Below are positions 1-20,643 of a stretch of 64,000 nt of DNA, in pieces. This stretch comes from Polytrichum commune (lineage: Eukaryota; Streptophyta; Polytrichopsida; Polytrichales; Polytrichaceae). Location of the stretch: assembly GCA_950295325.1 (NCBI GenBank), contig OX485805.1, positions 46,154,758 through 46,218,757 of the forward strand, in the 5' to 3' direction. A program made the translations under genes and the position numbers. Below the pieces are notes generated by a model, which made no database searches, was not told the origin of the DNA, and saw only the letters and a list, made by a program, of their open reading frames with translations. Every line of letters begins with the position of its first letter. Position 1 is the first letter of the stretch.

Positions 1-3000
1 CTTTTGGTGAACCTATCATTGGACAACGTGGAATTACCATTCAACTCACACAGTGGATGAAATATTCATTTGGACCTCTCGTAGATTACCCACCTCATTA
101 TAATTAATTATGGGTGTAAAGGTAGAATTACAACTAGGACTAATTGAATAATACGTCTAGTATATTTACAAATCTAGAACAAAGAACACCTATACTTTAT
201 GTATATTTTGTAACCCCTAGGCATACTTAACACCCCTTTTGTGCACCCATGTGGGTCCATACAAAGCACATTGAGTGCACTCCCCATGCTCCATTAACAA
301 AAAAAGTTTCATTAGGGAAACTTTGAGACCTCAAGATACCCCTCCCATAGTGTTAGCCTCGCACCCCTTTAAGAGTCGTTTGAGAATGCAAAGAAATCCC
401 TTGGTCCCCAAGCCCCTAACTCCACTTGCTTTGTACATGTACATGAGTTATTGTGCATAGAAAATTGACAACTAAGATTACCCCGATGGGAGGGGGTTGA
501 AGAATATCAATACCCATGAACAATGACCACTTGAGAAGTGCACCAACAAATATCAATATAAAATTAGAAGGTCTCACAGTATCACCTAGTTTTGTACCCA
601 CGTAGGTCACTTGAGTTTGGTACACCCTTGCCCCAATCATGCAGTGAAGTGTGCTTGGGAGGTACTTAGGCCAAGTATTATTGCTTAAAAAATGCTTTAA
701 AGTAAGGTTTATAACATGATTTTTGAGTTAGTAGGGGTTTGTTATAAACATTCAGCCCTATGAGGCCCTTGGTCATTTTTAAAGTGATTGTACAACCCCT
801 AAAGCTGAAGGTATATAGCCCAAATCAAAGATGTATTACAAACTATGATGTAAATACTTAATTTGAAATTGGTATAACAAAAATAGTTTTGTAGAATGCT
901 TTGTAGACTACATCTATATAATTGGAATTACATAGTTCTCACAATATAAATCTGAAGGTAGTTTCTTACAAACATAAAAATGATTTCATGTTGCAAATAA
1001 AATTAATAATTTTTTTCTAATTGAAAAATAATGGTAAATTTGTGATGGAGAAAGGAAGATTTAAGGCAACAGAAAAACTTGTTACTAGATTCTCAATAAT
1101 ATATATTTAGGTGTAGAGTTGAAAATTATTATAATCGTGGTGGAAAATTCTCAATCCAAATATGACAACCACTTTGATCAAATACACTTGAGGTTTTCTT
1201 TAACTATTGTATGGCTCATGTTGAACCAAATCTGTGCCCATGGAATGCATCCCTCGTGATAAAAACCAATGGACACTAAAAAGATATGTGTTGTGGCCAT
1301 ACAAGGTGTGGATGTAACTTGTATGCATACTAAACAATATGTAAGTTGCTAGACATGATATAAGTTCCTAGATATAGGTCAACTTGACGGTTGCATAAAC
1401 CATCCATCCTAGTTGGCCCATTTTGATTACATGGAACACTACAAGGGTGCGAAAGACAATGGTTCTATATAAATCATGGGTTGCATTGCATTAGAGCAAC
1501 TCATGTTTCTAGGGACCAACCTCTTCACGTCTCCTTCACACTATCAAAACCCTACAAACCTACAACCCCTCTAAACATGCATTCCAATCCACATAACCGG
1601 TGATTAAAACACATGTTAAGCACACTAACCTTGTATTGGACCTACTGCAAAGGTCCTTCTCGACTTGATGTTAAACAAACATGTTTTTAGCTAGAAGGAG
1701 AGTTCTAGTTACTTTGTATTCCAATCTACTACTAACATTGCTTGTTGATCCTAGGTGGTTGTTCATGTATCAACATTAATACTTGGTTTTTAGCTCAACC
1801 AAATGCCAATCCTATAGCTACTAATTAAAACACCCCCCCCTTGCATGGGTTCTATGTGGTAGTAACTTAGCCACTACCCTCAACACCCATTGGTTGATGT
1901 TTTAATAAATGAAGGTTTATATAAAGTCAACCTCACCATGCTAACAAACATCGGCCCAATATTACGCTTATGGTAAATGGGAGGTGAACGGGCTTTATCT
2001 TGTTAAATTGGTCTTTTTTGATGACCTATATTTGTGGGTAGGTGTGGATTAATGAACTCACATCAAAAAGACATGTGTTTAGAATAGATTGGACTATATG
2101 TTCAGATTTTATTAACCATTATACTAGGCTCAATAGTCACTTAACTAGGGGGGGGGGGGTTACATGAACAATCTCTACTTACCTCAAAAATATCTCAAGA
2201 TTAATTAGCAACTTACGTTAAGTCTTTGCTTTAAACACAAAATGATGTCAACACACAATAGTTGCTCTATTATCTCAAATAATGGTTGCTAATCATTATC
2301 AATTGGCTCCAACAATCGCACAAGGTCAATGTCCTATTGGACCAAATGTATGAGTATAGAAGTCCACAGTCATTGTGACATATTCACAACCATTTGGCAA
2401 TGCACCATATAACAACCACATGTCCCCATCTATGCTTCCAACTTGCCTTCAAACATGCTTTACACTTAGCTTATGAGGAAAGGCAGTAGATGAAAAACAT
2501 TAAAAAAATCTAACACATGTGCCAGGAGGTTCATGCCATGGCATGAGCTATCATATTGAAATTGTCTCACCTATGAAACACACTTGGAAGGCTACCCTAA
2601 GCCTAGCACATGATGACACATTGTCCCCGTCTGTGATGGCAACAAATAGAAGCAAATTTAAGCCTAACTACTCTCTAAGGTGTGTGGCATACATGAAAGT
2701 GCTTCCTAGATCCTTTTCTATGCATTCCAAATTGCAATTTCCACGTGGGATTAAGATGGTTCTCACATAATATACAATCAATGTGTGAGTAGTGGAAATG
2801 ATATATATATATTTTTTAATATTTTTTAATATTTTAATTTTTTTGCAAAATGAAGCATGAATCACTCTACAATATCCAAAACTCCCAAACCGTTTTAAAT
2901 TCAACAATGTTGGATCCCTGTTCAATAGGTTAGAACACCTATTAACTCCAACATAAACAAAACACTATATTCGTTAAATTGAGACTTTTTGGGCATTTTG

Positions 3001-3084
3001 AGACATTCATAGAAATAAGAACAAGGATAAATGGAACACATATTGGTGAAAGTTGTAAGATGCGAACACTTTGAAGCGGGTGTT
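1..3084. other. AT-rich intergenic DNA, no gene seen
   Basis: I see no convincing coding region, RNA gene or structured element. The open frames are short, overlap on both strands and have no recognisable motif. The stretch has several homopolymer tracts: a C run near 1831 and a G run of about ten near 2149. G runs of nine or more recur at 4120, 22379, 24980 and 25535. Confidence 0.6.
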
Positions 3085-3118
3085 TAGACCAAGAACCCCA
3101 TTAATAACTCATATTTGT

Positions 3119-3535
3119 GATGGTTTAGGGTGGGCAATCGAGACCTTAGACCAAATTGAAGGGGACATCTTAAAACATTCATATTAATGCACACAAAATA
3201 TGAGAGCTTGTATGAATATGGTTTAGGTAGGGCAATCCAAATCATAGATCTTATTGAAGGGAAAATCTTAAAACATTCATATTAATGCACACAAAATATG
3301 AGAGCTTGTATGAATATGGTTTAGGTAGGGCAATCCAAACCATAGATCTTATTGAAGGGAAAATCTTAAAACATTCATATTAATGCACACAAAATATGAG
3401 AGCTTGTATGAATATGGTTTAGGTAGGGCACTCCAAACCATAGATCTTATTGAAGGGGAAATCTTAAAACATTCATATTAATGCACACAATAAGGCACTC
3501 CAAACCTTAGACCATATGGAAGGGGAAATCATGTC
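3119..3535. repeat. 98-bp tandem repeat, about four copies
   Basis: The landmark ATTAATGCACAC recurs at 3183, 3281, 3379 and 3477, exactly 98 bases apart. Three copies are nearly identical; the first (from about 3119) and last are partial or diverged. Each complete unit carries TTTAGGTAGGGCAATCCAAA (3222-3241, 3320-3339, 3418-3437 with one change). That matches the TTTGGGTCG-NN-CGACCCAAA palindrome found further right at 14 of the 18 fixed positions, so the unit probably grew around a decayed palindrome. No coding function is seen. Confidence 0.85.
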
Positions 3536-3671
3536 TAACTTATATTATTGCAAAAAAAAACATACAAAGTGTGGCATGTAAAATGCATATCATGCTAACA
3601 CCACACATCCATTGGATAGTGCGACCCAAAATGTTCTTGCCTATGGCCCAAAACCCTACGCCTACTATGGC

Positions 3672-5477
3672 CTATCTAGCCTCGGATACTACCTCTTTTT
3701 CTTTTGCTTCATTTTCTTTTGTTTTTTTTTTCTTTTGCCTCTTTTTCTTTTGCCTCTTTTTCTTTTGCTGCAGCTTCTTTTGCTCGCATTGCTTCAACAT
3801 TCCTGAAAATCTCCGCCCCGCGACTATAGCCATTCTTGGGGTGACCGCCATCCATAACACATTTTGGAGTCCGTCGGCCGCCCGAAATATACGTCGAAGA
3901 ATTCGAATACGATGAAGTGGATTGTCTCGCATTTCTGGTCATGGCGTACATACGCTCGAACTCGATGGACGCACTAGACCGCATAGGTTTACGGGTGGGA
4001 GCAACCTGCAACGCGTCAATGCAAGACCACATGTGTTAGTTTAGGGAGGAAGACCCAAACGTGTCACACGTTCCTTTTTTAAGTGCAAAATGATTGTAAT
4101 GCGCGGTTAACCAGGTTTGGGGGGGGGGGGGGTTCACCTTGTCACCGGGGGCGTTCCCGTCGGAGTCGGCGAGGAGGGGCAATGCGTCCCGCAAAGGAAT
4201 AGGAAGGGTTCCACTCTTCGTTGGCCGAGCGTCCATCCGCAGCCGCCGTTGAGGTGTACTACTGCCGCCGGGCGGAGAGGGGGATGTCCGGACGCATTTG
4301 CGATTTATGCCCTTGAGCGGCGACGGGGACGGAGAATGCCGGAAGATTTGCTTGGGTGGGGGGCTATCGACGACGCCGGCGTCAAGAGGCTCCTTGGAGT
4401 AGTCAATGGTCGACGCGGCGTCGTAGACGGTCTCGTAGAAGAAACTCCCCAAGTCCGACTCGCTGACGATGTCAATCGAGGGCTCCAAATGCTGGCGCAA
4501 AAAAGGAAACGAAACAAAACCCAAGGGAGGAGGGTTTGATAGAGCGCGTGAAAATCAAGATACATATGAAGCATATACTACACAAAATGAAAGGGCGCGC
4601 GCGCGCGCCCACACACACACACACACATACATACATACACATACATACAAACACACGTAGTGTCTCAAATGAGCTTGTTAAATTTCGCGTGAGATAACAA
4701 CTCTCTGTACAAATGGTCTCGTGGATCCAAGTATCTCTCGCCTATCGGATTGTTCCTAACAAAATTGTTTACGGGCAGTCCGCTTCCGCAGAGTGCCTGG
4801 AGGTATTTACCAAGGTCTAACAAAAATCGGTCCCGGACCTTCTCGACCGTCCAGGTAGGGCAAACTATGAGGTTGGCTGTCGGGTTCAACATGTTCTTTG
4901 CGGCGCTGTCGTCCACCATGAGCGTGTTCTCGCGGGTGGGACAGACGTCGTAGCGGACGCCTATCAAGGACGGCCGCTGGTCCCAAAAAATGGGCTTCAA
5001 GACCTTGAGGTATTGGGGGGAAGCGGGGTTGTTTGGTTTTTTGACGACTTTGCCGTCCGGTGTGTACAATATTCTACAGGCTTCCTGTGCTAGGACCATG
5101 CACGGGGGCTCGATGCCCTTGAAGATGAACTCCACGACGGCATTGGTGTTCTCGGCCGTCATGGAGCTCCAAACGACCACCCACCATCGTTGTTGGGCCA
5201 GCTAGAGGAAGGTCCGAAGCCACGGGCGGAGGTGAACTAGCTTGCTCTTTATGAACGTGGGCGGGCCGTCGTAATTCGCGTCCTCGGGCTTGCAAAAGGG
5301 CACCGTGGGGGTCCTCGGGCAATGAACGCATTAGACGAGGACCCTGTTCAGGTCTAACACCAGGAATCGTTTCTTCGGCCGCGGGGGCGGGGCGGGTAAA
5401 ATCGGGGGCGCCGCCGCGCTGCCCTCTCTGCTCCTTGGAGAAGAGCGTCGGGGAGCCGCTACGCTATGTTCCGAGCC
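3672..5477 (-). pseudogene. FCP1/NIF-like HAD phosphatase gene, broken
   Basis: Reading from about 5477 down, after a plausible CCGCAG acceptor, a proline-rich segment leads into HAD motif I (LVLDLNRVLV, 5334-5363), motif II (WSS, about 5163-5171) and the acidic motif (MVDDS, about 4905-4916). This order is that of the FCP1/NLI-interacting-factor branch of HAD phosphatases, which act on protein phosphoserine, classically the RNA polymerase II tail. Motif I reads DLN, not DLD, so activity is doubtful even before decay. In-frame stops lie at 5331-5333 (TAA) and 5202-5204 (TAG). Two further exons fit: 4138-4491 (Ser/Pro-rich; acceptor CGCCAG, donor AAG/GTGAAC) and about 3672-4005 (acceptor TTGCAG), ending in a Lys/Glu/Ala-rich tail. 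It may be the 3' part of the ParB-like gene upstream or a separate gene. Confidence 0.6.
4596..4655. repeat. GC / CA / CATA microsatellite
   Basis: A compound simple repeat: alternating GC, then CA, then CATA tetranucleotides. It lies in the non-coding gap between the HAD-domain exon (stop at 4665) and the next exon (from 4491 down) of the broken phosphatase-like gene, so it probably expanded within an intron. Confidence 0.85.
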
Positions 5478-5990
5478 CTGCGGATACGATCGAGAGAAAA
5501 CGGTGGGCGACTTATGTCATGCTATGTCCAAACGAAGCATTAAAGAAACGAGTGTTCTCGGTGCAAACACAAAACCATTTGATTCATTTTGGAGGGGGTG
5601 CAACAAGGGACACAAGAGAGGCAAGAGCATACAACATACATTCAAACACAGGATACGAGTATATAGGAGTAAAAAATGGTGATTATATTGTATACAATGC
5701 TCTATGTACATCTTGATTGGGGGGAGCCGCATTGAACGATGCGTCCAAACTAGCCTACTTCTACATCTAGCAAAAATTGAAGAGACGGGCCGCCGTGATG
5801 AAGACTTCGTCGCAAGCCGGGGGGTATGTGGACGAACGAATGGTCGGGGGGAAGTGGCGAAGGGCGCGAGTGCCGGGGGGGCGACGTGTCCGTGAGTTTA
5901 GGGTAGTTAGGGGACACGACCAAGGCAAGAAGACAAAGACCCATGGAGTTTGGGTCGACCGACCCAAACTGAGTGGGGTCAGTGCATTAC
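5478..5990 (-). other. intron or spacer between the ParB/MTase and HAD parts, with one palindrome
   Basis: The last exon of the ParB/methyltransferase-like gene ends at a donor-like GAG/GTAATG (exon end 5991), and the HAD exon begins after a CCGCAG acceptor near 5478. If both are used, this is a 513-bp intron joining the two parts into one transcript. It carries a perfect copy of the 20-bp palindrome (5949-5968, centre AC). A GC-rich open frame at 5767-5967 on the minus strand could be a missed exon, but has no motif I recognise. Confidence 0.45.
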
Positions 5991-6253
5991 CTCGCCTTGG
6001 TCGTGCCTTGACGACGTGGATGCCGTCACCGCGTGCGCTGCCCCACCTCTGTCACCGCCGCCTCCGACGACGACGTCAGCCGCAACCTGCTCCTGCAAAG
6101 GCTGACTGTCAGGCCTTTGTCCCAACCCAACCTCCGCATGCACATCATGCATTGGTTCATCGACTGGGTTAGGAGTAGAGGTATCACCAGGCCTTTGCGG
6201 GGCCTTCAACATCTAGCATGGGCTCGTCCACCGGGGTCTGATCGGGGACGGGG

Positions 6254-6342
6254 TTTGGGTCGGCCGACCCAAACCCTGCTGCTTGGCGAGCGTCGCTCTG
6301 GGACGCTGCAACGTCGGCACTGTTTGGGTCGGACGACCCAAA
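6254..6342. repeat. two palindrome copies inside an exon
   Basis: Perfect copies of TTTGGGTCG-NN-CGACCCAAA lie at 6254-6273 (centre GC) and 6323-6342 (centre GA), within the open frame of exon 3 of the broken ParB/methyltransferase-like gene. On the minus strand they encode GFGSADPNP and MFGSSDPNS, so the repeat adds an FGSxDPN peptide without breaking the frame. Confidence 0.85.
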
Positions 6343-7549
6343 CATGTGGGGGTCGTCCCGCTGGTGGTGTGGGGGCAAGAGGATGGGAGGCCGGAGCGGC
6401 GGGGGTGCCAACGGGTTGGAAGCTCCTGGGACGCGCCAAAGGTTGGGGTCGTCCACCTGCTGGACGGGCGCGTAAGGGCGGGCGTGCGGCTGCAGCAAAT
6501 GCGCGAAGCTGAAGGACTGCTGCGGCGCCGGCCGCGGGCGGATATCCTGTGGAGGGAAGCCTGCGGGCAAGTGAGGGAATGAACTCGGGGGAGCCATCAC
6601 CAATTCCTGCGCCAGCATGCCCTGGATCACTTGCGTGATCAGGTCCGCTTGGGACGGAGGTGGGGCCATCGCCCTTTGCCGCTCCTGCTCCAACAGGAGA
6701 GCCCTCAACTCCGCGACTTCGTTGCGGACCGAGGGCTCCTCGGCGGCGGCCTTTTGCAATCGGACGCGTTGCTCCTCGTCCCGGAGCATCTTCGCGTTGG
6801 CCTCCTCCACGGTGAGGACCTCGGGTTTCACCCTCACCATCCCGGCGAACGCTGTGGGGGAGGCAGGATCCGACCTCAGCCTCTTCGCGAGCTCCATGTC
6901 GTCCTCGTCCTCGGAGCTTATGGCGATCGTCTCCTCCACCGCATAGTCCCCGTACAACTTCTTCCCCTTCAGCATTCGCCGCTCCCTGAAGGTGGCCGTC
7001 GCGTCCCTCGAATACATGTCCTTCGCGTCGGCCACCGTCAGGACGGGTACTAGCTTGCTCTGCGGCGTTGTAGCCCGCATGGCCTTCTTCCGCTGAGGGG
7101 CCTCGGATTCTTGAGTGAATCCTGTTGCCCCTTCCTCCACCTCCCCCTCCACTTTCTCTGCTTCCTCCTCCTCCTCCTCTTCCTCCCCCTCCTCCGCAAC
7201 CTCGCCACCTGCTCCCATAGAGGGATTGCCCGGATGCAACCCGATGAGCGGCTCTGGCAATTGAACGGGGGCTCGCATGGCAAATTCACCCGGGTTGATT
7301 CGCCTCGCCATATCCAAAGGATTCTCGCCCCCCTCGACGATCTCTTCGACGTAGGATCCGGGTATCCAGTCGAGGATGTCCATTCTCTTGGCCAGCGCCT
7401 TCTGGGTCCTGTAGAATTGAACATCGGCATCCTCCACATAGGAGTAGATGTTCAACCCAGACATCTGCACAATCAAAATCAATACTATTAGTATCACCAA
7501 ATGAACAAATAATGGAAAGTGACATCCAAAACAAAATAAGAATAGTTAG

Positions 7550-7640
7550 TTTGGGTCGAGCGACCCAAACTAGGTATGCCCATAGTTTGGGTCGAGCGAC
7601 CCAAACAATGCATGCCCTAGTTTGGGTCGCTCGACCCAAA
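7550..7640. repeat. three palindrome copies in an intron
   Basis: Perfect 20-bp palindromes at 7550-7569, 7586-7605 (centre AG) and 7621-7640 (centre CT), spaced 36 and 35 bases apart. They fill almost half of the 210-bp intron 7465-7674 of the ParB/methyltransferase-like gene (donor ATG/GTAAGC, acceptor TGTGCAG). AG and CT centres are the same site read on opposite strands. Confidence 0.9.
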
Positions 7641-8639
7641 CCGTCCATATAGTTCCTTCAGGTTATTTGCTTACCATGGCTGCGAAAACCGGTTTGGAGC
7701 CCCCGAAGACATTGAAGATGCAGTCCCCTCTCTTCGTGAGGGTCCTCATCATCCGCAGGTAGAACTCCATGCGCAGCTCATCCGCGGGGTAGTTGGCGTA
7801 CTTCGTCTCGTCGTACAAGCTCCTGCTGGTGCCCAACCCTTCTTGGACTTGGAAGAGCTTCTCCATCCTGGCTATGGGATGGTTTGGCACCTTAAGCAGC
7901 TCAGCTTTGTACACAAAGTACAAGCACAACACGTTGACGATCTTCGTCTTCTTGTCTTTCAGCGTGCTGTACGCCCCCTCCGCCGGTGCAGCAACGTAGT
8001 GAGATTTTGAGATGGCGTACTCTGGCTGCAATTTCCGTACGATCTCTTACACCTGCTCTGCCCTCCTGTCCTCGACAATCCACAGCCAGACGTCGACCTC
8101 CCTGAATTTGGGGCTGCCGTAATCCACAAACTTCGTGAAGAACGGCTCGTAGAATGGGGTGCTCATTGTCCCCTCGAATGAGGCTCCAGGGATGTTCCTG
8201 AAGTCTATCATTCCGAAGGGGAAGCGGTCCCCGACTTTTGTCCTGATAGCCTTCCTGGCATCAGAGCCCGGCCATCCTTGGATCTTGAGAGGCTCGAGGG
8301 TGACCAACACTACTAGAAAATCATGACCAAATTAACAAAAAATCAACAGATCTTTGTCGATCCGGGCATTGCAATGACCGATTTCACCGATTTTTGAATT
8401 TTTGTAAAAATCAACAGTTTACTGCCTACATTTTTGTTGATTAGAATAGTACAATGACCAAATCAACAAAATTTTAGTAATGTGGAATCTTTTGGAATCT
8501 TTTGGGAATCTTCTAGGATCTATTGGAATATTGTAAAATCTTTTTAATTTTTTGCAATTTATGGACTTGTAAGTATATGGGTATGGAAATAATTACAAAT
8601 TCAAAGGTGTGTAAATATTATAAATATTATATTAGTTGA

Positions 8640-8649
8640 TAGTTAATAT

Positions 8650-8680
<31 letters not shown>

Positions 8681-8830
8681 GTATATGAATTAATATGTAT
8701 ATGTATAATATGTATATGTATAATATGTATATATATATATAATATATGTAACATATATGTATATAATATATGTAACATGTATGTATATATATGTATATAT
8801 GTATATGTATATATAATATATTAATATGTA
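8640..8830. repeat. TA-rich microsatellite
   Basis: Imperfect TA and TATG repeats inside the CACTA element. A 62-codon frame through it is a product of the simple sequence and is not a gene. Confidence 0.9.
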
Positions 8831-8834
8831 TACA

Positions 8835-9335
8835 TTTACAGTAAATATATACAGTATATATTTACTGTAATTATATAGTTTATATATACTGTATATATAT
8901 ACTGTAATTATATATTTTATATATACTGTAATTATATACTGTATATATACTGTATATATATACTGTAATTATATACTGTATATATACTGTATATATTTAC
9001 TGTAATTATATACTGTATATATTTACTGTAATTATATACTGTATATATTTACTGTAATTATATACTGTATATATTTACTGTAATTATATACTGTATATAT
9101 TTACTGTAATTATATACTGTATATATTTACTGTAATTATATACTGTATATATTTACTGTAATTATATACTGTATATATTTACTGTAATTATATACTGTAT
9201 ATATTTACTGTAATTATATACTGTATATATTTACTGTAATTATATACTGTATATATTTACTGTAATTATATACTATATATATTTACTGTAATTATATACT
9301 GTATATATATTGTATATATTTACAGTAAATATATA
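8835..9335. repeat. 26-bp tandem array inside the CACTA element
   Basis: The unit is about 26 bases, built from ATTATATACTGTA and TATATTTACTGTA. It repeats almost perfectly about eleven times from roughly 9000 to 9300, with shorter variants before. Both ends carry the inverted form TTTACAGTAAATATATAC (near 8835 and 9318), so the array is bounded by small inverted repeats. The composition is nearly pure A/T with regular CTGTA steps. Confidence 0.88.
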
Positions 9336-9404
9336 CATCAAGTAGGTAGTAAAGAGAAAATAGTGGCCTTAATCTAGAAAGGTTTAAAACACTCCATTTA
9401 TATC

Positions 9405-9610
9405 ATGTGTGATGTGATGACCTAGTGGTTAAGGCACTTGTGTGGGTGTCACTAGGTGCAAGGTTCGATCCCCGTGGCGGACAGCTTCGGCCTTGGCATT
9501 GCCACTTAGGTGAGTGGTAGGTAGTTTGTACTTGTAGGTGAGGTATAGGTTGAGGATTACTTGGGAGGGGTTAGGAATTGTAGACTTGCCATCCCTTCTT
9601 TTTTTATTTT
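9405..9610 (+). mobile_element. tRNA-derived SINE
   Basis: A tRNA-like head carries a box A-like GACCTAGTGGTTAAGG and a perfect-looking box B, GGTTCGATCCCC, about 45 bases apart. A non-tRNA body and a T-rich tail (TTCTTTTTTTATTTTTT near 9597) follow. This head, body and short T tail is the layout of many plant SINEs. It is nested inside the CACTA element. No full cloverleaf with an anticodon arm was recognised, so it is not called as a tRNA gene. Confidence 0.7.
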
Positions 9611-10539
9611 TTAATGTTATATATATATATAAATTACAAAAATAAGTTTTAAAAAAAAATCTTTTTGTGACCATATCAACAGAAAAAATCAACAAAATTG
9701 TGTTACATCATGTCCAGGTCAACGCGTCCTAAGTAACAACCGCGACCAATGCCTTTCTGTTGATCCGGACGCAAAATTTTCTACTAGTGCAAGTTGAAGT
9801 AGGCGTCGCCCTCGAAGCTGACGATCTTCTTCTCCTTTATAAAATTGGAGAAGGCACGCGCGGAGTGTTCGGGAAGCGCTCGGTTCCTCCCCCCCTTCAC
9901 AAGCTTGGACTTCAGGAAGTCGTCTCCCGCCTCCATGATGAGTGCCGCCATTGACGCACTGGTGAACTTGTAGTCGGCTTTGAATGCCCTCCAGTGCGCC
10001 TCGTCGACCTCTCCATCCACTATGAGCTTCCTTTCCGGCACCAGCTTGTGCAGCTCTTGGACGATGGTCGTCTTCTTTTTCCTATTCTCTGTCCATTCCT
10101 TCATGGTGTAGCATGAAGGGACGAAGATTTTGGGCTTGATGAAGACGATCTTCGGGTGGACCCAACATCTCTTCGCCGTCGGCTGCACGTGAAGGATGGG
10201 GGACGCCGCCTTTCCCATTTCTGTCTCCGAGAGACCTTGAAGAGCCCTGAAGAACTCCCTCACCAGAGGCTTCATCTGCTTGAAGCGCGCAATCTGATTG
10301 AAGAGCATGCCGGTGTCGGGATCCATGAGGTCCCCCGTCTCGTGTTTCTCGAAAACACTCTTCCATCTCCCCCACACGGAGTCAGACGCTGTGATCAAAT
10401 AAATTTCTCCTCTTAGCTCGTTGTACTTCTTCTGCTTGTGGGAAGCGTTGTCAATCGAGGAGAATTTGTTGATCATCTGGTATTTGAAGTCGTGCACATG
10501 AAGTAAATAACACACGTGAGAAAACTGCGAATGCAAGAG

Positions 10540-10673
10540 TTTGGGTCGATCGACCCAAACTATAAACCTCACGAGAAAAAGTAAGCAATGTTACAGTTTG
10601 GGTCGATCGACCTAAACTATAAACCTGAATAAAAAAGGTAAACAATTCAAGAGTTTGGGTCGATCGACCCAAA
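10540..10673. repeat. three palindrome copies at the exon 1/2 intron
   Basis: Copies at 10540-10559, 10597-10616 (one change) and 10654-10673, all with centre AT and spaced exactly 57 bases apart. They lie in the intron that starts at the GTGAGT donor (10682) of the ParB/methyltransferase-like gene. The even spacing suggests tandem growth of a 57-bp unit. Confidence 0.9.
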
Positions 10674-12036
10674 CATACTCACCTCCCATTTTGGGTTCTT
10701 GTCTTTAGTATTCTCCCTTTCCTTGGAAGGCCTGCCGTAAAACTCCTACACCTCCCTCGAGGCCATGATGTTCCGAATCCAGGATGCCTGGTACGCCCTC
10801 TTCTTGTTTCCCATGTTGAAGAAGCGTGAGATGTCGGTCAGTACGGTCTCGTTGTCAGACCAAACCACCAATGCCTTCCACACCTTTAGCTTCTCCTTTT
10901 GGTTGTTGGGGTCGTCCCACTCGGTCATCAGCTGAATTTTTTTAGACGCCTCCACACTGTGCTGGCCGTCAATCAGCCAGAAGTCGCCTTTGCATATTGT
11001 CGGCCACATTTCAGGCGTCGGCATTCTCTTCAGCCCTTGCGGCATGACAACAATTGTCTGCCTGTCGTCTTTGAATTGCCCTCCCAAGATCTGAGCGACC
11101 ATCCAGTCGACGTAGGCGTCCTCCTTGGCTCGGACACACTTCTCAGGTGGCGCAAGGTGGCACTGTGCAATGTTCACCTCGAACTTGAAGTCCCTGCCCA
11201 TGAAGAAGCAATGCAGGCACTTCGTCTCGAAGTTATCATTGATTTTCTGTATCTCGCCTGCATCCACCTCTTGGCCAGGTTTCGGCATCCGCAGCTCCGG
11301 GGAAACTGGCTCGGTGGTCATGACGGAGGACTCTCTCGCCCTCTTCGACGGGGTCGTCTGCCGGCTTCTGGACGGTGTGGGCGTCTCGCTGTCAGCCGGC
11401 GTTCCTGTAGTGCTAGGCCGTCTGGAGTCTGCAGGGACCGGACACGGTATCCTCACAGTTTGGGGTCTGGACGACCCTGCACCTTCTTCCGCCGTTGCCT
11501 TACGCCTCACAGGCTTCTGCGTTTTGGCTTTACTTTGCAGCGCCTTGTTGAGGACCGTGATGGCCTGTTTCAATTTTGTAAACCTACTTGCAACCTTCGT
11601 GTTGGTTACATTGCCATCTATGAAAATTGTCTCCGGTTTAATTGTTTCAGGCTCCACGCATGACTCCTTGGCGTATATAGTGTCGAATGACTCGGAAAAC
11701 TGGTGCATGAACATGTGGGCGTTCTGCATGGCGGAGTTCTCGAGAATTATGTCCACGTAATCCCCGAGGGCTTGGACGGACGCAACCTCCCATCCTGTCA
11801 ACGTTGTCCAAGTGTGGTTCTCGTGGGTTCCTACTTTTACCACGAATAGGAGCTTGAACTGGGAGCCCTTTACAACCTGAACTGACCACGCAAGGACAAG
11901 CCCATCCTTGGGCACGTATGAGTCGTCCTAGGGGGTTTCATACTCCTACCATATTACGTCTGGCGCGAGCATAAAGAACCTTTCTCCAGGTCTCTTCTTG
12001 GGGGCCATTTGTAAGTCCAGAAATTAAAACTATTAG

Positions 12037-12503
12037 TTTCGGTCGATCGACCCAAAGTAGTCGACAATGCATTTAACATTTGGTGGAAATGGAACAAATG
12101 TATTTTATTGACCAGCCCGAATTCAAGGTTTGGGTCGATCGACCGAAACCTTGAACACTTGGTGGCTCGTGCTCCTTGTGTGCTGAAATAGACCTATGAT
12201 GGTTCCTCGTTAGAGAGTTTGTGTGTATTTAGTATAATATATGTGTATGTACATGATTTCATCAATTTCAATTATGGACATCTGAAGGATTTTTTGATAC
12301 TTTACTTGTTCAGACATCGTGTTTGGGTCGGTCGACCCAAACATGAAGCTTTGTTTTGGGTTTAGGTTCCCAATCATGAGGCCATGTTTGGGTCGAACGA
12401 CCCAAACATGAGGCTTTCTTTTGTGTTTAGGTTCACAGACATGTGGCTTTCTTTAGGGGTCAGGGTCCCAAAATGAGGACATGTTTAGGTCGGACGGCCC
12501 AAA
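12037..12503. repeat. five dispersed palindrome copies upstream of the ParB-like gene
   Basis: Copies lie at 12037-12056, 12129-12148, 12322-12341 (centre GT), 12387-12406 (centre AA) and 12484-12503. The third and fourth have perfect arms; the others differ by one or a few bases. They begin 29 bases upstream of the proposed start codon at 12008, in the 5' region of the broken gene. Confidence 0.88.
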
Positions 12504-12515
12504 CAATAACCTGTG

Positions 12516-12727
12516 TTTGGGTCGACCGACCCAAACAAGAGGCTGTGTTTGGGTCGACCGACCCAAACAAGAGGCTGTGTTTGGGTCAATCGACCCAAAC
12601 AAGAGGATGTGTTTGGGTCGATCGACCCAAACAAGAGGCTGTGTTTGGGTCGATCGACCCAAACAAGAGGATGTGTTTGGGTCGATCGACCCAAACAAGT
12701 GGCTGTGTTTGGGTCGTCTCCCCAAAC
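12516..12727. repeat. seven-copy palindrome array, 32-bp period
   Basis: Palindrome copies start at 12516, 12548, 12580, 12612, 12644, 12676 and 12708, every 32 bases. Five have perfect arms; the third and last differ. The 12-base spacer is a near-constant CAAGAGGCTGTG. Because palindrome and spacer lack stops in most frames, both strands show open frames of repeated WVDRPKQ, FGSxDPN and GRSTQT peptides; these follow from the repeat and are not genes. It is not a CRISPR array: the spacers are identical and too short. Confidence 0.93.
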
Positions 12728-12899
12728 AATATTATTTTATTATATATTTTAAACTTGGCATGAAGCATATACATTGCTTATGCGTTGTGTATGCTACAAA
12801 CCATGAATTAAACATCTCACATTGTGGATATAAGAAAACACAATACCTTTGAAAGATGTGTTGCAGACACTTTGGAGTAGATCTGGTTCTGTGGCTTCC

Positions 12900-13275
12900 A
12901 AACAATTATAAATTCTCTCAAACAACTCTTGAATCTCTCAACAAACTCTTGAATCTCTGAACGAACTCCTGAACCTCTGAACCAACTACTGAATCTCACA
13001 CACAACTACTATACCTCTGAAACGAATTCAAAATCTCTCAAGCACTCCTTAAACAACACAAACTCCCAAAACTTCAAAGATATAACCACTCCTGAATCTC
13101 ACAAAAAACTGCTGAATCTATCAAACAAACCTAAAACAACACAAACTCACAAAACGTGCACCTCACAAACACTCCTGAATCTCACAAGAACTCCTGGACA
13201 CTCTTCCAACTCTCTTCCAACACTCTTCCAACACTTTCCAACACTCTTCCAACAACTCTTCCAACTCTTTCCTTC
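12900..13275. repeat. degenerate short tandem repeat
   Basis: Loose repeats of about 20-24 bases built on CTGAATCTCTCAAACAACTC run from about 12900 to 13190, followed by 11-12-base repeats of CAACACTCTTCC to about 13275. They are imperfect and pyrimidine/adenine-rich. No coding frame is convincing. Confidence 0.7.
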
Positions 13276-13904
13276 ACCCTCACGCCCTAAAACCTTCCTC
13301 CGTGTGTTTCTGGTTTTTTCTAAACTCTTCCTAACTTCCAAGGTTGCACAAGTGCTATTCTGTAGTAGAGCAAGAGAAAGGAGGGATATAGAAGAATGAA
13401 ATACAAGCAAAACGCGGGAGAAAGCAAACTAAAAGCTACACATGCGCCTGAATCGCCACGCCGCTTCGCGAAAGCGGCGCTTCCAAGCGAGGCGCGGAGC
13501 GTATGCTTGGCGCGGAGAGTAAGAGAGAAAGAATGAAATTTTGTGACGGTTGGGGTTTTGTTTGCCTCGGGAATTGGCCCCCAACCGCGCGAATAGGGTG
13601 CCCACAAGATTAGGGCACCCACGGGAATAGGGCTATAGGGAACCCTAAATTCGAAAGCCCGACTCTAAACCCTTGGCGGGCCTACCTCTTTAAAAAGGCA
13701 TAGGCAATTTCCCTCATGGCATAGGTTGCATACTACAATATCAAATTTTTGTAAGTTGAAAACCTTTTGAGCCTTTAAGTTACCCGCCAATTGCCTTCAA
13801 AACTAATTTTTAGTAGGTTAAAATCCTTCATATCTTTTAATGTTGTAGGTTTTAAATTCAATTACCCGCCAATTGCATTCAAAATTTGAGTACTAAGTCG
13901 TATC
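13276..13904. other. no gene recognised; short GC-rich patch
   Basis: A GC-rich patch at about 13440-13660 contains short inverted motifs (CGCTTCGCGAAAGCG; GGGTGCCC..GGGCACCC). It could be the promoter or a 5' exon of the broken minus-strand gene at 5991-12008, but no signal decides this. Confidence 0.35.
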
Positions 13905-13985
13905 CTTGGCAGGAATTGAACCTGGCTAAGCCTTTCACCACGTTTGAAGGCCAAGGATTAACCATCTGTTTTTTAAAGCGTTGAT
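13905..13985 (-). mobile_element. tRNA-like SINE head
   Basis: On the minus strand, a box A-like TGGTTAATCCTTGGCC is followed about 40 bases on by a box B-like GGTTCAATTCCTGCC. This is the spacing of a Pol III tRNA-type promoter and suggests a SINE head or tRNA relic. No clean acceptor-stem pairing was found. Confidence 0.5.
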
Positions 13986-15285
13986 TATAAGTTATGAAAG
14001 GTTGCTTAAATTCAAATGAGTTCAAGGGTGAAAGTCCTCACCATCTTCTGATTCAACCTCTATTCTTCCTAAGATATAGCCTAAAGATATGTACTTAGGC
14101 CAACTAATTTCCTAATTTGAAGAAGGATGAATGGCCAAAATCCTCTCTTTTAAACAAATTGTATGTAAAATTTCCTACATGTTTTTTATCACATAGGTTG
14201 ATATCCTATGTTCTTAAATTGTGCATAGGCTCTTTGTCCTACACTTTCAAAATTTTATAGGCTAAGTCACTTATTTTTTAGGCTACATTTGTATTAATCA
14301 CTTTATTTGTTAATTTGTGATGGTTTAGGTAGGACGACCCAAACATTAGACTATGTTGTTGTGGTCTTACAATAAATATGGTTCTAAGCCCTTGAAATAA
14401 TTGGATGACTTTATGGTTCTATTCTCAAACCTAAGTTTGATCCTCGACTTCATGTATAACTCTACTATGATGTATAAAATGCCCCCCACCCCCACCTCGC
14501 ACCCCACCAAAGCTTTTGTACAAGTTTCTCAAGATTTCAATCCCTTGTGCTTGTGATCATTTCCTAATCCACTAGACTGTTTTCTCTAATTAGTGTGGGT
14601 TACCATTCGGAGCTACACATTTCTGTAACATTTAATAGAAAGTATTTTTTTCATCCAAATAACATAAGTAGGTAGTATGCACACGAAAGATTATGATCTG
14701 ACTTAGTTGGTTAAAAATGATAATGTCGGTAAAAAGTTATAGCAAGACATAATTATGAAGTGCACAAGTGCACCTCTCGTTCATCCAACATAAAGCCCTT
14801 AAATAGTATGTAACTTGATCTCTGGAGTACACTAAGGGTCTACATAAAACGTGTTATTCTACAAAACTAACCATTTATATAGCCAATGCATTCTTACAAC
14901 AAAACTTTATGCTAAACTATTACTTAACCCCTACATACATGACACCATACCCTCCCTTTTCCAAACACATTGAAGGCATTGGTTTCTCTTTTGTTTGACC
15001 ATGTTAGGAAAACCATACAATTGCGTGATATTTGACGATGGAATCATTGACATCTAGACTTTACCAATGATGCCAACAACTCACACGATATTGAATGAAT
15101 AAAAAAAGAGTCCCACACCCCCCAACATGTGGAACAATTTAGAATACGTGAGTGTGGAGCCTATTAAATGAATACCTTCCCCAACTGCATTTTGTAAGGG
15201 TTTTGAAATGCATGATCCTTATTTGAAAATACTAACATGCGCAAGTTTTAAGTACATCCCTGAGATCGTGACTTTGATGACTTCG
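13986..15285. other. intergenic, no gene; one decayed palindrome
   Basis: AT-rich with no supported gene. At 14324-14343 lies TTTAGGTAGGACGACCCAAA, a palindrome copy with two left-arm changes. Those same two changes occur in the 98-bp repeat at 3.2 kb, which makes this copy an intermediate. A short fragment of the inverted-repeat element family seen at 35.6 kb (CTCGTTCATCCAACAT) lies near 14774. Confidence 0.6.
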
Positions 15286-15289
15286 CCAA

Positions 15290-16070
15290 TAAACCATGGT
15301 TCACGATATATTTAATATATAGATTATGATATAAGAGTAAATCGGATAAGCACAACATGAAATGAAACCATTCAAGCAATCATGTTGTTATTCATTGTTC
15401 CCTCCATGTATATTAGATGATGGCGCAAGATAAATTAGATGTTGTTTGTATATGGGGGCATCAGTGGACCACAACTACATTTGGTGTTTAGGGTTTAGGG
15501 TTTAGGGTTTAGGGTTTAGGAGATATGGTTATAACATATTAATCTATCCAATGTCAATGTATAACATTGTCTTACTCGTGAGAAGAGTCTTATAGGAAGG
15601 TTATAGTGAAGACGATATTGATTATGTTAATTTGTTATTTGAGACGTTTAAACGCGATATATTGATTGGTCGTGTGTTTATTCAAATAACATGAAATATT
15701 GTGGATGTTAATAGGGGCTAGGGGTCCAACTTTGGATGTTTCGCTCACTTTAGGGAATCACATATTAGTCGCTAATAAACCATCCTTCATGATGTATTTC
15801 ATATATGGAATGTGATGTAAAAGTAAATCGGAGAAGCACAACATCATGTTGTTATTCATTGTTCTCTCCACGTGTATTAGATAATGGAGGAAGATATAAC
15901 AGATGTTGTTTGCATAATATGAAGAAGAGTCCAATCGGAAGGTCATAGTAAATACAATCTTCATCATGTTAATATGATATATGGGACGTTTAAACATGAT
16001 ATCCTAATTGGTTTTGTATGTAGTCAATGCGTATTTCATGTTGTGGATGTTATAAGGGTTTAGGGTCCAA
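15290..16070. repeat. diverged direct duplication, two copies
   Basis: About 15290-15720 and 15775-16065 share the same order of landmarks: GTAAATCGGA.AAGCACAACAT, CATGTTGTTATTCATTGTTC, a TGTATTAGAT.ATGG segment, AGATGTTGTTTG, then AGTCTTATAGGAAGG or its variant, GACGTTTAAAC and a TGTGGATGTTA..AGGG stretch. The second copy is shorter. The first contains the telomere-like repeat. Confidence 0.7.
15487..15520 (+). repeat. interstitial plant telomere repeat
   Basis: Four complete TTTAGGG units plus a partial fifth. Shorter runs of the same motif occur near 16243-16262 and 21263-21279. TTTAGGG is the Arabidopsis-type plant telomere unit. Copy number here is far too low for a chromosome end. Confidence 0.9.
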
Positions 16071-16962
16071 TCTTCGATGTTTTGCTCTCACACATTAGTA
16101 AACTTGAAGTGAACTTGAGGATGGATTCAAGTAACATTAAAAGATTGAACTAAAAAGGGACATTGGTAGTTAGTATCCCCTTAACAACGTCCACATACGT
16201 TCGTCATTGCCACTCTTGCATGTGAGATAATAGAGCAAGGTTCTAGGGTTTAGGGTTTAGGGGAGACAAATAAATAATTCTATTCATGATGACAATGGCC
16301 TCAAGCCTTGGAAACTCTCTCATAATTGCAGCCTCCAAATGGCCCAAACCCCACCTAAATAGGTTTACACTTGAAAGCATTGAATGGAGTTGTGTTTGGG
16401 TCTACATATTGGTTAAAATATACCTTGATGATACTTGAAAAAATTAATGTGGCCGCCACCCTTCCTCCCAACGGCGTATGTCATATCCACACAAGACAAA
16501 AAAAAAAAGATTAAATATCATAGACTAAGTCATATGACGGCTGGGGTATGAGAGGGGCATTGATAGATGCGCATTTTCTACTATAAACAAAAAACGGGGA
16601 ATTATGTCAGGAGGTTTGAAAAAACCTATGCAAGAGAACAAGGCGGGAAAGGCATCCAATGAGGAAGTTGGAGAAACGGAGGTGGATAGTATAAAGGGAC
16701 GCACCCCCCAAAAGTCTGTCATTTTTTGCTCTTCTCCCACTCTTGAATTCGTAGAGAGAACTCTTAGTCGGAGCTATACTTCAAGGTTCGTGCATGCTGC
16801 CGTTCATTAGCACTTATCCACAGCATGCAAGTTCATGAGCACCTATCCACAGCATGGAAGCCCACCGGGAACTTTGCAATGAGCTCAAAATCATATGGGA
16901 TTTCGGATTATCCGCCGCATTATCCGCCGGATTTTGAGGGTTTCAGTGTGACTCTTATCAGG
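16071..16962. other. intergenic, no gene seen
   Basis: No supported coding region. A 68-codon plus-strand frame at 16604-16810 has no motif or flanking signal that favours it. The end of this stretch leads into the palindrome array and may be the promoter region of the gene at 17571. Confidence 0.5.
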
Positions 16963-17380
16963 TTTGGGTCGGTCGACCCAAACCCCTCCACTAGTGTGGG
17001 AGGGTTTCAGCCTGACCCTTACCAGGTTTGGGTCGGTCGACCAAAACCCCTCCACTAGTGTGGGCGGGTTTCAGCCTGACCCTTACACAGGTTTGGGTCG
17101 GTCGACCGAAACCCCTCCACTAGTGTGGGCGGGTTTCAGCCTGACCCTTACACAGGTTTGGGTCGGTCGACCCAAACCCCTCCACTAGTGTGGGAGGGTT
17201 CAGCCTGACCCTGATCAGATTTGGGTCGGTCGACCCAAACCCCACGACCAGTGTGGGCGGGCTTGACCAAAACCCCTCGACCCCTTGACATACAATGTTT
17301 GGGTCGACCGACCCAAACCCCAACCCCAGCTTGGGCGGCTGGAGGTTGACCATGAGAAGGTTTGGGTCGGTCGACCCAAA
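16963..17380. repeat. seven-copy palindrome array, about 65-bp period
   Basis: Palindrome copies start at 16963, 17027, 17092, 17157, 17220, 17298 and 17361. Five have perfect arms, with centre GT or AC (the same site on opposite strands). The spacer of about 45 bases contains CCTCCACTAGTGTGGGAGGG, itself nearly palindromic, so two kinds of dyad alternate. The array ends 190 bases before the proposed start of the gene at 17571, probably in its promoter or a 5' leader intron (acceptor-like TGTGTAG at about 17560). Confidence 0.92.
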
Positions 17381-17570
17381 CCCCCTCCCAAATTTTTTTT
17401 TGGAACTTGCGCAAAGTATTGGGAGTTCACATTGTAGTTGTGTTGCAAATGTCTTTATCCTCGGTGTCCCCATTTATCATGATGTCTTGTATTTTTCGAT
17501 ATTTGATTCTTTTGAACCCTTACATGGTGTGCATGTTTGTTGAGGTTTCATGTGCATGTGTGTAGGCGAA

Positions 17571-20500
17571 ATGGAGGGAGTTGGTGGAAGAGGGGATGCC
17601 TTCTCTGATGACATGGGCAACTCCCATTTTTCGTCTGGGGATGACCTAGACATTGTTGGGGAGGATAGTTTTGGTGACAGTGCAGATGAAGGTCATTTGG
17701 GGAGTCCTTCGCCATCTGCCCCTTCTTGCCCCACTGTGGAATGTGTTGGGCTTTCACGAACTTCATGGGTGAATTTGGATGTGGTACTTGTTAATGACAG
17801 TGGAGTTGCTGTGGCGGAGGGTATTTGTCGTAATACACATCCACAAGATTGCATTGATGAAAACCCCCTTGGCACCGAGGACGTTGGAGTTGTTATATTG
17901 GAATCACTCGTACATTCCGAAGTGAATCCAACTCATAGGTTCTCGTTGCGAAGGTGGCCGTTGAGGAATGTGACAATTGATGGGGTTAATTTGTATGAGC
18001 ATGAGCGACGACACATCGAAATCCAACAAGAGCTCCAAGCAAACATTCGGCCACGCAAAGGCCTACGGAAGTACGATACATTGGCACGTCTACTCCATCT
18101 GCAAATGAGTGTAAACGTCAAAGGTTGCTCTGTGAGGAGTCTATTAGAGAAGTTGCCACAAAGGATTGTTGTGTACATTGTTGTTGCTAATTGTTCCCAA
18201 GGGATAAATTGAAGGCCATCCGCGAGGAAATGTGGCTTGGAGATTTCCGTCTAAGATCCACCAAAAAGCTTGATGTCCATAGGGCGATACATGTGAACGG
18301 AGCGGGTCGCAAGGTCATCACCCTTGAGAGCATAGACGTGTGTTGTACGGCATGGTACACCATTTATGGTGTGTCGAAAGCGGAATTTTATAGACAAGCC
18401 GCGTATGCCAAGGAAGGACGCCAGTCCCGTCACCATGGGAATACGGGCTTAAAGAAACCAAGGGAAGCAACGAGACAAGCAACAGCCACTCTGGCAACCA
18501 TCATTGTCCCCCTTGCCGATGCAATGCCGCACAAAACACGCACACTCGCAACCGGTGAAAAAGTTGTGGAGAAGGTTCTTCCTATAGGCACGAAATGGAA
18601 AGACATATTGTTGGACGTAAACGCAGTTGGCGAGAAGGCCGGGCTGGACCCTATTTCGTTGTCGAAACTGAGTGCAATAAAAAAATCTCACTTTAACGAA
18701 TACATCACAAAAAGACGAGGTGACAAATTTGCCCGTTGTTCCAAATGCGAGAAGTTGAAACGCCTTCGAGATGCACACACGATGGGGACAGAGTCCTATG
18801 CCGCACATCAAATGAACTATTTCAAGCATGTGAACATGCAAGAAGCACACCGTAATAATTACTACACAAATAGAGCTTTGTCCATCTCTAGGCCTTTGGA
18901 GGTCCTTACAATCATCCATGACAAAATGGACCATGCCAAAACAGCCTCACCATGTTTTGCAAATCGAATAAAAGCCACGGACGGCCTTTTTAAGCTTCCT
19001 GTTTTGGTTACAGGTGATTTTGATAACAATTGCATTGCATTGCATTACCTAAACACAAATTTGTGCGTTTAGGTTTGTACTTGGGGCCAAACATGTACAT
19101 CATGTGAATTTTTTGGTGTTATAGTTGAATATTAAACCATTGGGTTGCCTTTGCAGGAATGATTGCACATGGGCATGGTGATGTCAAGTATGCTCATTAT
19201 GCTCTTGATTTGTATTCGGCGGATTCAAACCACACGATAGGGTCATTTGCAAAGCTTTTACGTGATTTGGAGAAACCGCCGTCCTATTCATCAAGATTGT
19301 TATTTGAAAACTCGGGATCAACACCTCTATATGAAGCAGTCTTGGATGGAAGAGATGTATGCGTGCACTCATTGCCGGAGCCACCAAGTGAAGATGTGAT
19401 TGCGAAGAATTTGCCCCCAACTCTGCGTGTCCAATTGGACAATTGTGCGAAGGACAATAAAAGTATATATGTTTTTGCATATTGGTTGTTGTTGGTTGCG
19501 AAAGGCATTTTCAAGGAGGTTTTTGTGTCCTTTCTATTGGTAGGCCACACGCACGATGATATTGATGCGTCTTTTGGGCGGTGGAGCATGAAGTTGCGCG
19601 AGGAGGATTTTCCAACAATCCCATTGTTGATGAAGTCGTACATGGATTTGGAGAACATTCCCGTCATCCCCCATATGATCGAGGAGGTTCCAGACTTCAA
19701 GGCATTTATAGAACCGTATATTCGAAGCGGAGCTCACCGATTGATCGGACATACGAAGGCACAACAATTTCGGTTCTACGTGTGTGACGATGGTGTCCCC
19801 GCCATGCAATACAAGTTGTTATGCACGTCACAAGACTGGAGCCCGCCGGAGGGTCTCCTTGTATGGCGTGTTGATGGGGAGGGAAGGACGATGTTGCCTG
19901 ACGGAGAGCCTAAGCCTTGCAAACCAATACCCATGAAGAATTTGGAGGACATTTGTAAAGGCATATCAGGCTTCATACAATATTGGGAGAGTTTGAGGGT
20001 AGCGGATGTTGGTGGATCGTGTTGGCTTCATTACGGAAGTTGGATACAATATTGGACACGTGTTCGTGGCGCTTTGGCAAACCTTCATTAAGATACACCC
20101 CTTACTTTAAGGCATGGGTTTTGGCCACAAACACGTGTCAACGTACAAATTTTGGAGGCTAGTCTTTTGGGAAATGGAGAGGTTCGAGAGGAGTTTGATG
20201 TGGACGACCATTACGTGGGACCTGCTAGTAGTCGTCCGCCACCATCTTTCCGCATTGCAGTGGATTGTCATGAAGGTTATATGCTCATTTTGCGTCCTGG
20301 AGATGAGACATATGCAAAGCCAGTGTGGGTGGCAAGAGCTTTGTCCAAACCAAATTTTGTAACTTCCAGCCCTCATTTTCGACAAATACAAGTAGAGTAC
20401 TACCGACCGACAACACGGAATGAAGATGTTGTTCGGCATTATACAAGCTGGGATACAAACCCTAACTTTCGGTGGAAGGTAGATTCTGAGCACGGTCCAT

Positions 20501-20643
20501 CTTGGGTAGATACAGATTCCATATTCATAGCATGGAAACCACGGAAAAATCATAGTGGATCAGTGTCCATCCCTCAAAAGTACATAACTTTTGCAAAAGA
20601 CAACCTTGCTCGGATCGCAGAAGAAGCAACCCACGTTGAATGA
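17571..20643 (+). pseudogene. DUF7869-type gene, broken
   Basis: Start ATG 17571 follows an acceptor-like TGTGTAG. The N-terminal part is acidic and low-complexity. From about 18065 the real frame shifts, giving a Cys cluster (CCVHCCC) and then LFPRDKLKAIREEMW. The frame runs to the donor ACAG/GTGATT; intron 19014-19156 (143 bp) ends TTTGCAG, and exon 19157-20643 follows in phase (TGMIAHGHGD). Diagnostic motifs are QLDNCAKDNKS and LVGHTHDDIDASFGRWS, the conserved core of the DUF7869 family. That family has an RNase H-like, transposase-like set of acidic residues but no proven function that I know of. Breaks: one frameshift (about 18050-18110), TAA at 18188-18190 and TAA at 20089-20091; the same frame continues after each stop. 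It is a dead copy of a protein of about 970 residues. Confidence 0.75.

Follow-up and report, generated by a model that had tools for sequence, protein, structure and literature searches.

An unsolved question is how transposons escape silencing while leaving the rest of the genome closed, and the best-worked plant example that we found is the VANC protein of the Arabidopsis VANDAL elements, which are Mutator-like elements (MULEs). In the available portions of the two published accounts, VANDAL motifs are 8-9 bp long and build up tandem arrays in the noncoding DNA of the element's own copies, the motif differs between related families along with the element's protein, and the motif of VANC6 is also found on an unrelated element, AT9TSD1 (PMC5735166; PMC10398659). 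In fungi, the available part of the report describes TET/JBP genes that are common to several unrelated DNA transposon superfamilies (PMC12730594). Element-specific repeated binding motifs (VANDAL, CACTA) and shared epigenetic accessory genes (fungi) are known; the palindromic form described here, common to unrelated elements, appears to be new. We found no literature on palindromic addresses of two-fold symmetry that leave the central dinucleotide free and are common to unrelated transposons, and literature titles on palindromes in transposons, ParB or methylase genes in transposons and anti-silencing palindromes revealed no such system, with subscription literature mostly outside the coverage of these searches. 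The palindrome lies in a 64,000-nucleotide stretch of the genome of the moss Polytrichum commune (hereafter the window; contig OX485805.1, positions 46,154,758 to 46,218,757 of the forward strand), inside a DNA transposon that we call family A. Its arms and their spacing are held while its centre and flanks drift, and it is probably the place where a protein recognises these elements.

When scanned with up to 3 mismatches, the window holds 29 matches to the palindrome, against 0.01 expected from shuffles. Twenty-eight lie at 5949-17380, 20 of them with perfect arms, and the remaining one, with 3 mismatches, lies to the left of these at position 3611. An earlier note made from this sequence had counted 29 copies at 5949-17380, of which 20 were perfect; the 20 stand, and the total would be reached by including a broken palindrome at 12708, which keeps a perfect left arm only. 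As the note had also said, the 46 kb to the right are empty, and our scan found no palindrome with 3 or fewer mismatches at 17381-64000. The conserved core is 22 bp long, GTTTGGGTCG-NN-CGACCCAAAC, with an extra G in 93 and an extra C in 94 of 97 distinct palindrome contexts, which, owing to arrays, are not independent of each other. Lone half-sites are rare: 24 of the 25 perfect left arms are paired in a palindrome with at most 1 mismatch. The palindromes form at least four tandem arrays, with periods of 36, 57, 32 and 65 bp, and there are several single copies besides. Arrays of different unit and single copies have little sequence in common except the 22-bp palindrome. A further array with a 98-bp period, at 3222-3437, contains poor matches (4-5 mismatches) that may be decayed relatives, a tentative assignment given that isolated chance matches also occur at 4 mismatches.

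We searched the 408-Mb assembly (seven contigs of 42-78 Mb) for the exact palindrome and found 9,731 places, while a reversed-pattern control gave 0. Perfect arms separated by 3-6 bp instead of 2 bp, the range covered by the spacer test, occur at 2 places in the genome. The 2-bp spacer is thus almost absolute, which strongly supports the earlier proposal of two-fold recognition across a 2-bp spacer. The 100 places listed of the 9,731 come from the first 2.16 Mb of a single contig (C1), and every one of them lies in one of five copies of family A or of a second element type, B1, which is described below. The sampled sites therefore belong to transposons, a membership that the earlier note had missed along with the other palindromes of related families. 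The note had named restriction to one known transposon family as evidence against it, and this turns out to be half right, as the listed places are in transposons but in transposons of two unrelated kinds. A bacterial or viral source of the palindrome was considered and rejected, since IMG/VR gave 0 places and a collection of prokaryote genomes 1 place, which is within the small number that chance would produce in 257 Gb.

To describe the constraint on the palindrome, we aligned segments of 44 copies at three single sites (5949, 6254 and 6323). A row was retained when it had an ungapped palindrome and flanks that, over 50 columns or more, reached 70% identity with one of two references; this left 27, 36 and 35 rows (57 distinct) and removed 17, 8 and 9. 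The removed rows were mostly unrelated or had no sequence at the site, although five of them did match but were too short (L031, L045, L059 and L074 at site 5949, L033 at site 6323); in L043 a gap in the palindrome at 6323 marks a lost site. The rows fall into two subfamilies. Between these, the arms differ in 29 of 5,040 pairwise comparisons (0.6%; pi 0.0058), whereas the centre differs in 351 of 560 (63%; pi 0.627) and the flanks in 8,045 of 22,004 (37%; pi 0.366). The corresponding values within subfamilies are 0.6%, 18% and 7%. Only 3 changes from the arm consensus were found in the 1,026 positions of the 57 distinct rows, all of them C>T or G>A. Rows chosen by the palindrome itself had given 3/522 for the arms, 10/58 for the centre and 190/1624 for the flanks, figures that are superseded by the rows chosen by their flanks. 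Fixed arms around a free centre, as the earlier note had it, are what these alignments give, and the equal divergence of arms and centre that it had named as contrary evidence is clearly not seen.

The three single palindromes occupy 5949-6342, and two of them (6254 and 6323) stand within an open frame on the minus strand (6184-7545), where they read FGSxDPN and where synonymous arm positions are also kept, bar the arm changes counted above. Palindromes at 7550, 7586 and 7621 (7550-7640) lie in an inferred minus-strand intron at 7465-7674, and those at 10540, 10597 and 10654 (10540-10673, 57-bp period) lie in another inferred intron. Upstream of a minus-strand gene, 12037-12727 holds palindromes at 12037, 12129, 12322 and 12387, a run with a 32-bp period at 12484-12676, and the broken copy at 12708. 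Seven palindromes with a period of about 65 bp lie at 16963-17380, 5' of a gene with a DUF7869 domain. The earlier note had described single copies, two tandem arrays, and sites in introns and an exon; the single copies hold, the arrays number at least four, and the introns and exon are those of transposon genes. In four whole copies of family A the same five compartments are filled, with 3/3/3/3, 3/3/2/3, 3/4/3/3, 11/14/5/5 and 7/17/14/20 sites (up to 5 mismatches) and with differing array periods. Arrays plainly grow and shrink between copies, and the identity of intron spacers between subfamilies is 0.49-0.64, against shuffled means of 0.51-0.54. Because the compartments are kept, the spacers have changed and the 2-bp gap is almost absolute, the kept unit is the pair of arms with its two-base gap and not the surrounding repeat.

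The family A element, with its nested inserts, spans 2961-21174 of the window, as delimited by alignment of copies, terminal inverted repeats and 4-bp duplications. Its left terminal inverted repeat, AACACTATATTCGTTAAATTGAGACTTT, lies at 2961-2988 (plus strand) and its right one at 21147-21174 (minus strand); both were identified by sequence and by copy comparison, and the target-site duplication ACAA reads at 2957-2960 and 21175-21178. Palindrome clusters on contig C1 reproduce the spacing of those in the window, and three other copies, taken from that contig as 10-kb stretches, align to the window with gaps from 2959-2961 through 21092-21176, the lowest of these ends (21092) being cut by the border of a stretch. 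The element ends in AACACTATATTCGTTAAATTGAGAC on both sides, or in one case in a form with 3 mismatches, and all four copies have 4-bp duplications (ACAA, AAGT, CCTT and ATAA, with flanks read by eye). With at most 1 mismatch, the terminal repeat occurs at 395 + 407 places genome-wide (control 0), which makes about 800 ends, enough for about 400 copies; several of the ends among those listed pair 16-18 kb apart. The four whole copies have 20, 38, 18 and 24 palindromes with perfect arms, and at this rate of 18-38 per copy family A could be the source of a large share of the 9,731. At least 11 copies with equal score and no stops, among the matches listed for one family A exon, indicate that the family moved recently. 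The earlier note had suggested recent spread or protection; besides this recent movement, the arms are held in diverged copies.

The putative transposase of family A, a role proposed from sequence, is the DUF7869 gene at about 17560-20643 on the plus strand (PF25273, E 1.2e-40 on 19129-20091); a literature search on DUF7869 found no paper. On the minus strand, an accessory gene includes an exon at 10746-11927, an open frame with a ParB-like DGQHS motif and at least 106 genome matches, and two exon pieces within 7336-8304 (7675-8304 and from 7464 down) that look like a DNA methylase by eye only and contain one in-frame TAA; the window copy of family A has at least one in-frame stop. We considered and set aside a classification of family A as CACTA (En/Spm): its termini are AACACTATA..., its duplications are 4 bp and not 3 bp in four of four copies, and a Pfam scan of 10 window open-frame pieces matched no CACTA transposase, the strong match being DUF7869. 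The same scan returned no recombinase family, although small or novel genes could be missed, and the recombinase offered by the earlier note as one possible binder finds no support there.

The second element type, B1 (L021-L025 and L029), carries the same palindrome as family A, in an inferred intron and between its genes. Its terminal repeats are about 60 bp long and 87% identical, and its duplications, AGTTGGCAT and TGGATGGAG in two of two copies (read by eye), are 9 bp long, which fits the roughly 9 bp of Mutator-like elements. Its transposase-like gene matches SWIM at E 0.076, below the cut-off, and no MULE family in Pfam; pieces of a related family, B2, match neither. The other B1 gene has a DGNHR motif, and one of its exons hits PHROG families of DNA methyltransferases (E 5e-5).

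A search with the DGNHR exon of B1 led to B2, whose exon is 39-41% identical. The B2 loci L050 and L051 contain no TTTGGGTCG palindrome with 4 or fewer mismatches; their own is GGTTTCGG-NN-CCGAAACC, found at 267 places genome-wide (control 1). A third palindrome, GTGTCTCGG-NN-CCGAGACAC (997 places, control 0), is that of family C. It is repeated in an insert in L022 whose coding sequence is related to the methylase-like exons of B1 (E 6.5e-6 and 2.3e-9). Another element with the C palindrome, L054, encodes both ParB-like and methylase-like parts, the latter matching PF01555 at E 6.6e-5 (23.4 bits, below the curated cut-off of 26.7). The ParB-like exons of B2 and C are 64-65% identical to each other, and both palindromes contain TCGG-NN-CCGA; the B1 exon is 38-41% identical to these two, and its palindrome contains GTCG-NN-CGAC. 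In 15 loci each palindrome type keeps almost entirely to its own family, the exception being one B2-type match in L022. This pattern of divergence is what a co-evolving reader and address would give, on the strength of three pairs only.

Taken together, these data suggest that the palindromes are two-fold protein-binding sites kept by the elements, bound by an accessory protein with a VANC-like anti-silencing role, and we give this reading as a whole a probability of roughly one half. The transposons would keep the palindromes mostly in their own noncoding DNA, that is, in 5' regions, introns and one partly coding 3' stretch. A symmetric DNA-binding protein would read both 10-bp arms and ignore the two central bases. 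The most likely binder would be the accessory protein encoded by the element, with its ParB-like motif and, in B1 and related families, methylase-like exons; it is favoured over other candidates because the palindromes differ among related elements whose accessory proteins have diverged. As the sites are placed 5' of the element's genes and within their introns, the effect is likely to be on the element's own expression or silencing, and binding would keep its own copies expressed or unsilenced, as VANC does for VANDAL. Both the identity of the binder and the anti-silencing effect are what we infer from this arrangement.

The likeness to VANC and VANDAL, as far as the available portions of those accounts go, is one of motif arrangement, with element and palindrome known here from sequence. 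Palindromes accumulate in noncoding regions of the element's own copies, except for the two sites in the open frame; the palindrome differs between B1, B2 and C as the accessory protein differs, although this holds for three pairs and the B1 motif on family A does not fit it simply; and an unrelated element carries the same motif, as A and B1 do here and AT9TSD1 does there. The moss motif, in contrast, is a 20-22-bp two-fold palindrome with a strict 2-bp free centre, against 8-9 bp. TnpA/TNP1 of CACTA elements (En/Spm, Tgmt*), in the available part of the source, resemble the candidate binder in being element-encoded and in having family-specific repeats that are thought to diversify with them; CACTA motifs, however, are subterminal, whereas the palindromes described here are internal, in introns and 5' regions (PMC2613891). 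Family A also differs in its 4-bp, not 3-bp, duplication and its DUF7869 gene. Like the fungal TET/JBP genes, the moss accessory genes would be epigenetic genes that occur in unrelated transposon superfamilies, but the enzyme is another one, and the available part of that report describes no shared DNA address motif (PMC12730594).

Several points weigh against this reading. The accessory proteins of A and B1 are scarcely alike, which leaves their common palindrome hard to account for: the two may have arrived at it by convergence, one may supply the binder, or a host factor may read it. The likeness between the ParB-like parts of A and family B amounts to one motif of 16-17 columns (DGQHS/DGNHR; hhalign E 0.055-0.061). 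BLAST between A and B accessory proteins gave nothing significant (best E 1.5 and 0.57), and a profile comparison did not relate their methylase-like regions. The methylase-like exons of A match no profile, and AlphaFold models of two window pieces were unusable (predicted local distance difference test, pLDDT, 34 and 38). For B and C the label ParB-like comes from the D-G-N-H-R motif and one PHROG ParB match (E 0.09), and Pfam scans of A, B1 and B2/C pieces found no ParB N-terminal domain. In a search of solved structures the A profiles, the ParB-like profile of B and the NIF piece of family A had no useful match, and the B1 methylase-like profile matched DpnA only at E 0.35. Just three pairs of palindrome and protein were compared. 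B2 keeps its arms with less rigour, as one site is perfect among the 17 listed in L050, and the 267 B2-type places include some, with a TA centre and a spacing of about 136 bp, that look like arrays of another family. DNA N4/N6 methyltransferases carry the catalytic motif (D/N/S)PP(Y/F/W). At the likely place of this motif, located by eye, B1 has QFPDG and C has ADLPEG, which makes a methylating activity of the B1/C accessory protein doubtful. The methylase that the earlier note had listed among possible binders finds weak support in the exons of B1 and its relatives, with a catalytic motif that looks degraded by eye.

If the accessory protein is not the binder, a host DNA-binding protein such as a transcription factor or insulator protein could read the palindrome, and two unrelated transposon types could have acquired the site for expression. 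That A and B1 differ in ends and duplications yet have the identical 22 bp, with accessory proteins not demonstrably related, is what one would expect in this case. We nonetheless consider a host factor unlikely: all 100 places listed are in five A or B1 copies, and a single host factor leaves the other palindromes of B2 and C unexplained. Less likely again is that the palindromes are sites for a transposase or a TnpA-like protein, which excision and insertion would require in cis. In the available part of PMC2613891, CACTA elements typically have repeated protein-binding motifs close to their ends, and family A has poor matches (4-5 mismatches) within 0.5 kb of its left end, but its perfect copies lie in the interior, the closest of them about 3.0 and 3.8 kb away from the ends, and the palindrome is common to two element types that differ in their ends and target duplications.

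Alternatively, the palindrome could act as a folded structure, either cruciform DNA or an RNA hairpin, with its centre as the loop. Outside the core, the bases at offset 2, counted from the 20-mer, are complementary in 70 of the 97 contexts, against 31.9 expected by shuffling. These contexts are not independent, however, and from offset 3 onwards the bases are complementary no more often than in shuffled sequence; moreover, pairing alone does not require the arm sequence itself to be fixed, nor the G and C beside NN, which would lie within the loop. Folding is accordingly improbable. The least plausible alternative, which we regard as very improbable, is that the motif has no function and is homogenised by array slippage and gene conversion. 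The arrays do expand and contract, but single sites keep their arms between subfamilies while the centre and both flanks diverge.

A broader form of the proposal that the palindromes are element-kept binding sites is more tentative, and we hold it to be somewhat less probable than its opposite. There may be a genome-wide class of palindrome-address systems, comprising several families from at least two superfamilies, each with a ParB/methylase-like (and probably non-methylating) reader and its own palindrome with a 2-bp free centre. Readers and addresses would diversify together, and the address of A and B1 would have been passed on or shared, with one element riding on the anti-silencing protein of the other. 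In bacteria, ParB binds palindromic parS sites, several per replicon. The moss elements resemble that system in having palindromic sites and a protein with a ParB-like motif, but here a ParB fold is putative and no partition role is implied. With about 10,000 near-invariant sites, several pairs of palindrome and protein and an address common to unrelated elements, reader-address co-evolution would be testable by simple binding assays, and the elements could yield new DNA-binding proteins with long, specific sites.

Other palindromes accompany these elements. In B1, a 64-bp array of a different palindrome, ACCCTGTGCGTTAACGCACAGGGT, adjoins the TTTGGGTCG array (L024:7662-9375 and L023:3067-3096), and several of its copies have an identical decayed left arm. 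A decayed DUF7869 element (L025:9022-9664 and L026:974-4033) has scattered CATYGGGAG-NN-CTCCCRATG-like palindromes with varied centres. The form suspected there, CATCGGGAG-NN-CTCCCGATG, has 8 scattered exact places (control 0), and the case for it as a further palindrome system of this old element is weak.

Several further features of the window concern family A and its surroundings. An open frame at 4665-5201 on the minus strand has a NIF-like phosphatase domain (PF03031, E 2.7e-6, above its cut-off), which makes family A a transposon that carries such a domain. A nested non-autonomous CACTA-like insert with the duplication CAA lies at 8309-9789; it is absent from three other copies, its ends were read from the sequence, and it contains a 26-bp tandem array and, by eye, a tRNA-like stretch near 9420-9490. 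A degenerate palindrome with 2 mismatches, at 14324-14343, stands at the edge of a stretch (about 14322-14816) that is absent from one other copy. Within family A copies, terminal-repeat-like sequence adjoins the degenerate palindrome at window 14290-14343 and at L014:9129-9173, an arrangement reminiscent of a small non-autonomous insertion that bears a subterminal palindrome. Outside the family A element, a related terminal repeat with 3 mismatches, CACTATATTCGTTAATCGGAGAC, lies at 26586, and at 30134-30879 a 120-bp unit is repeated about six times with 89% matches, in part within an open frame.

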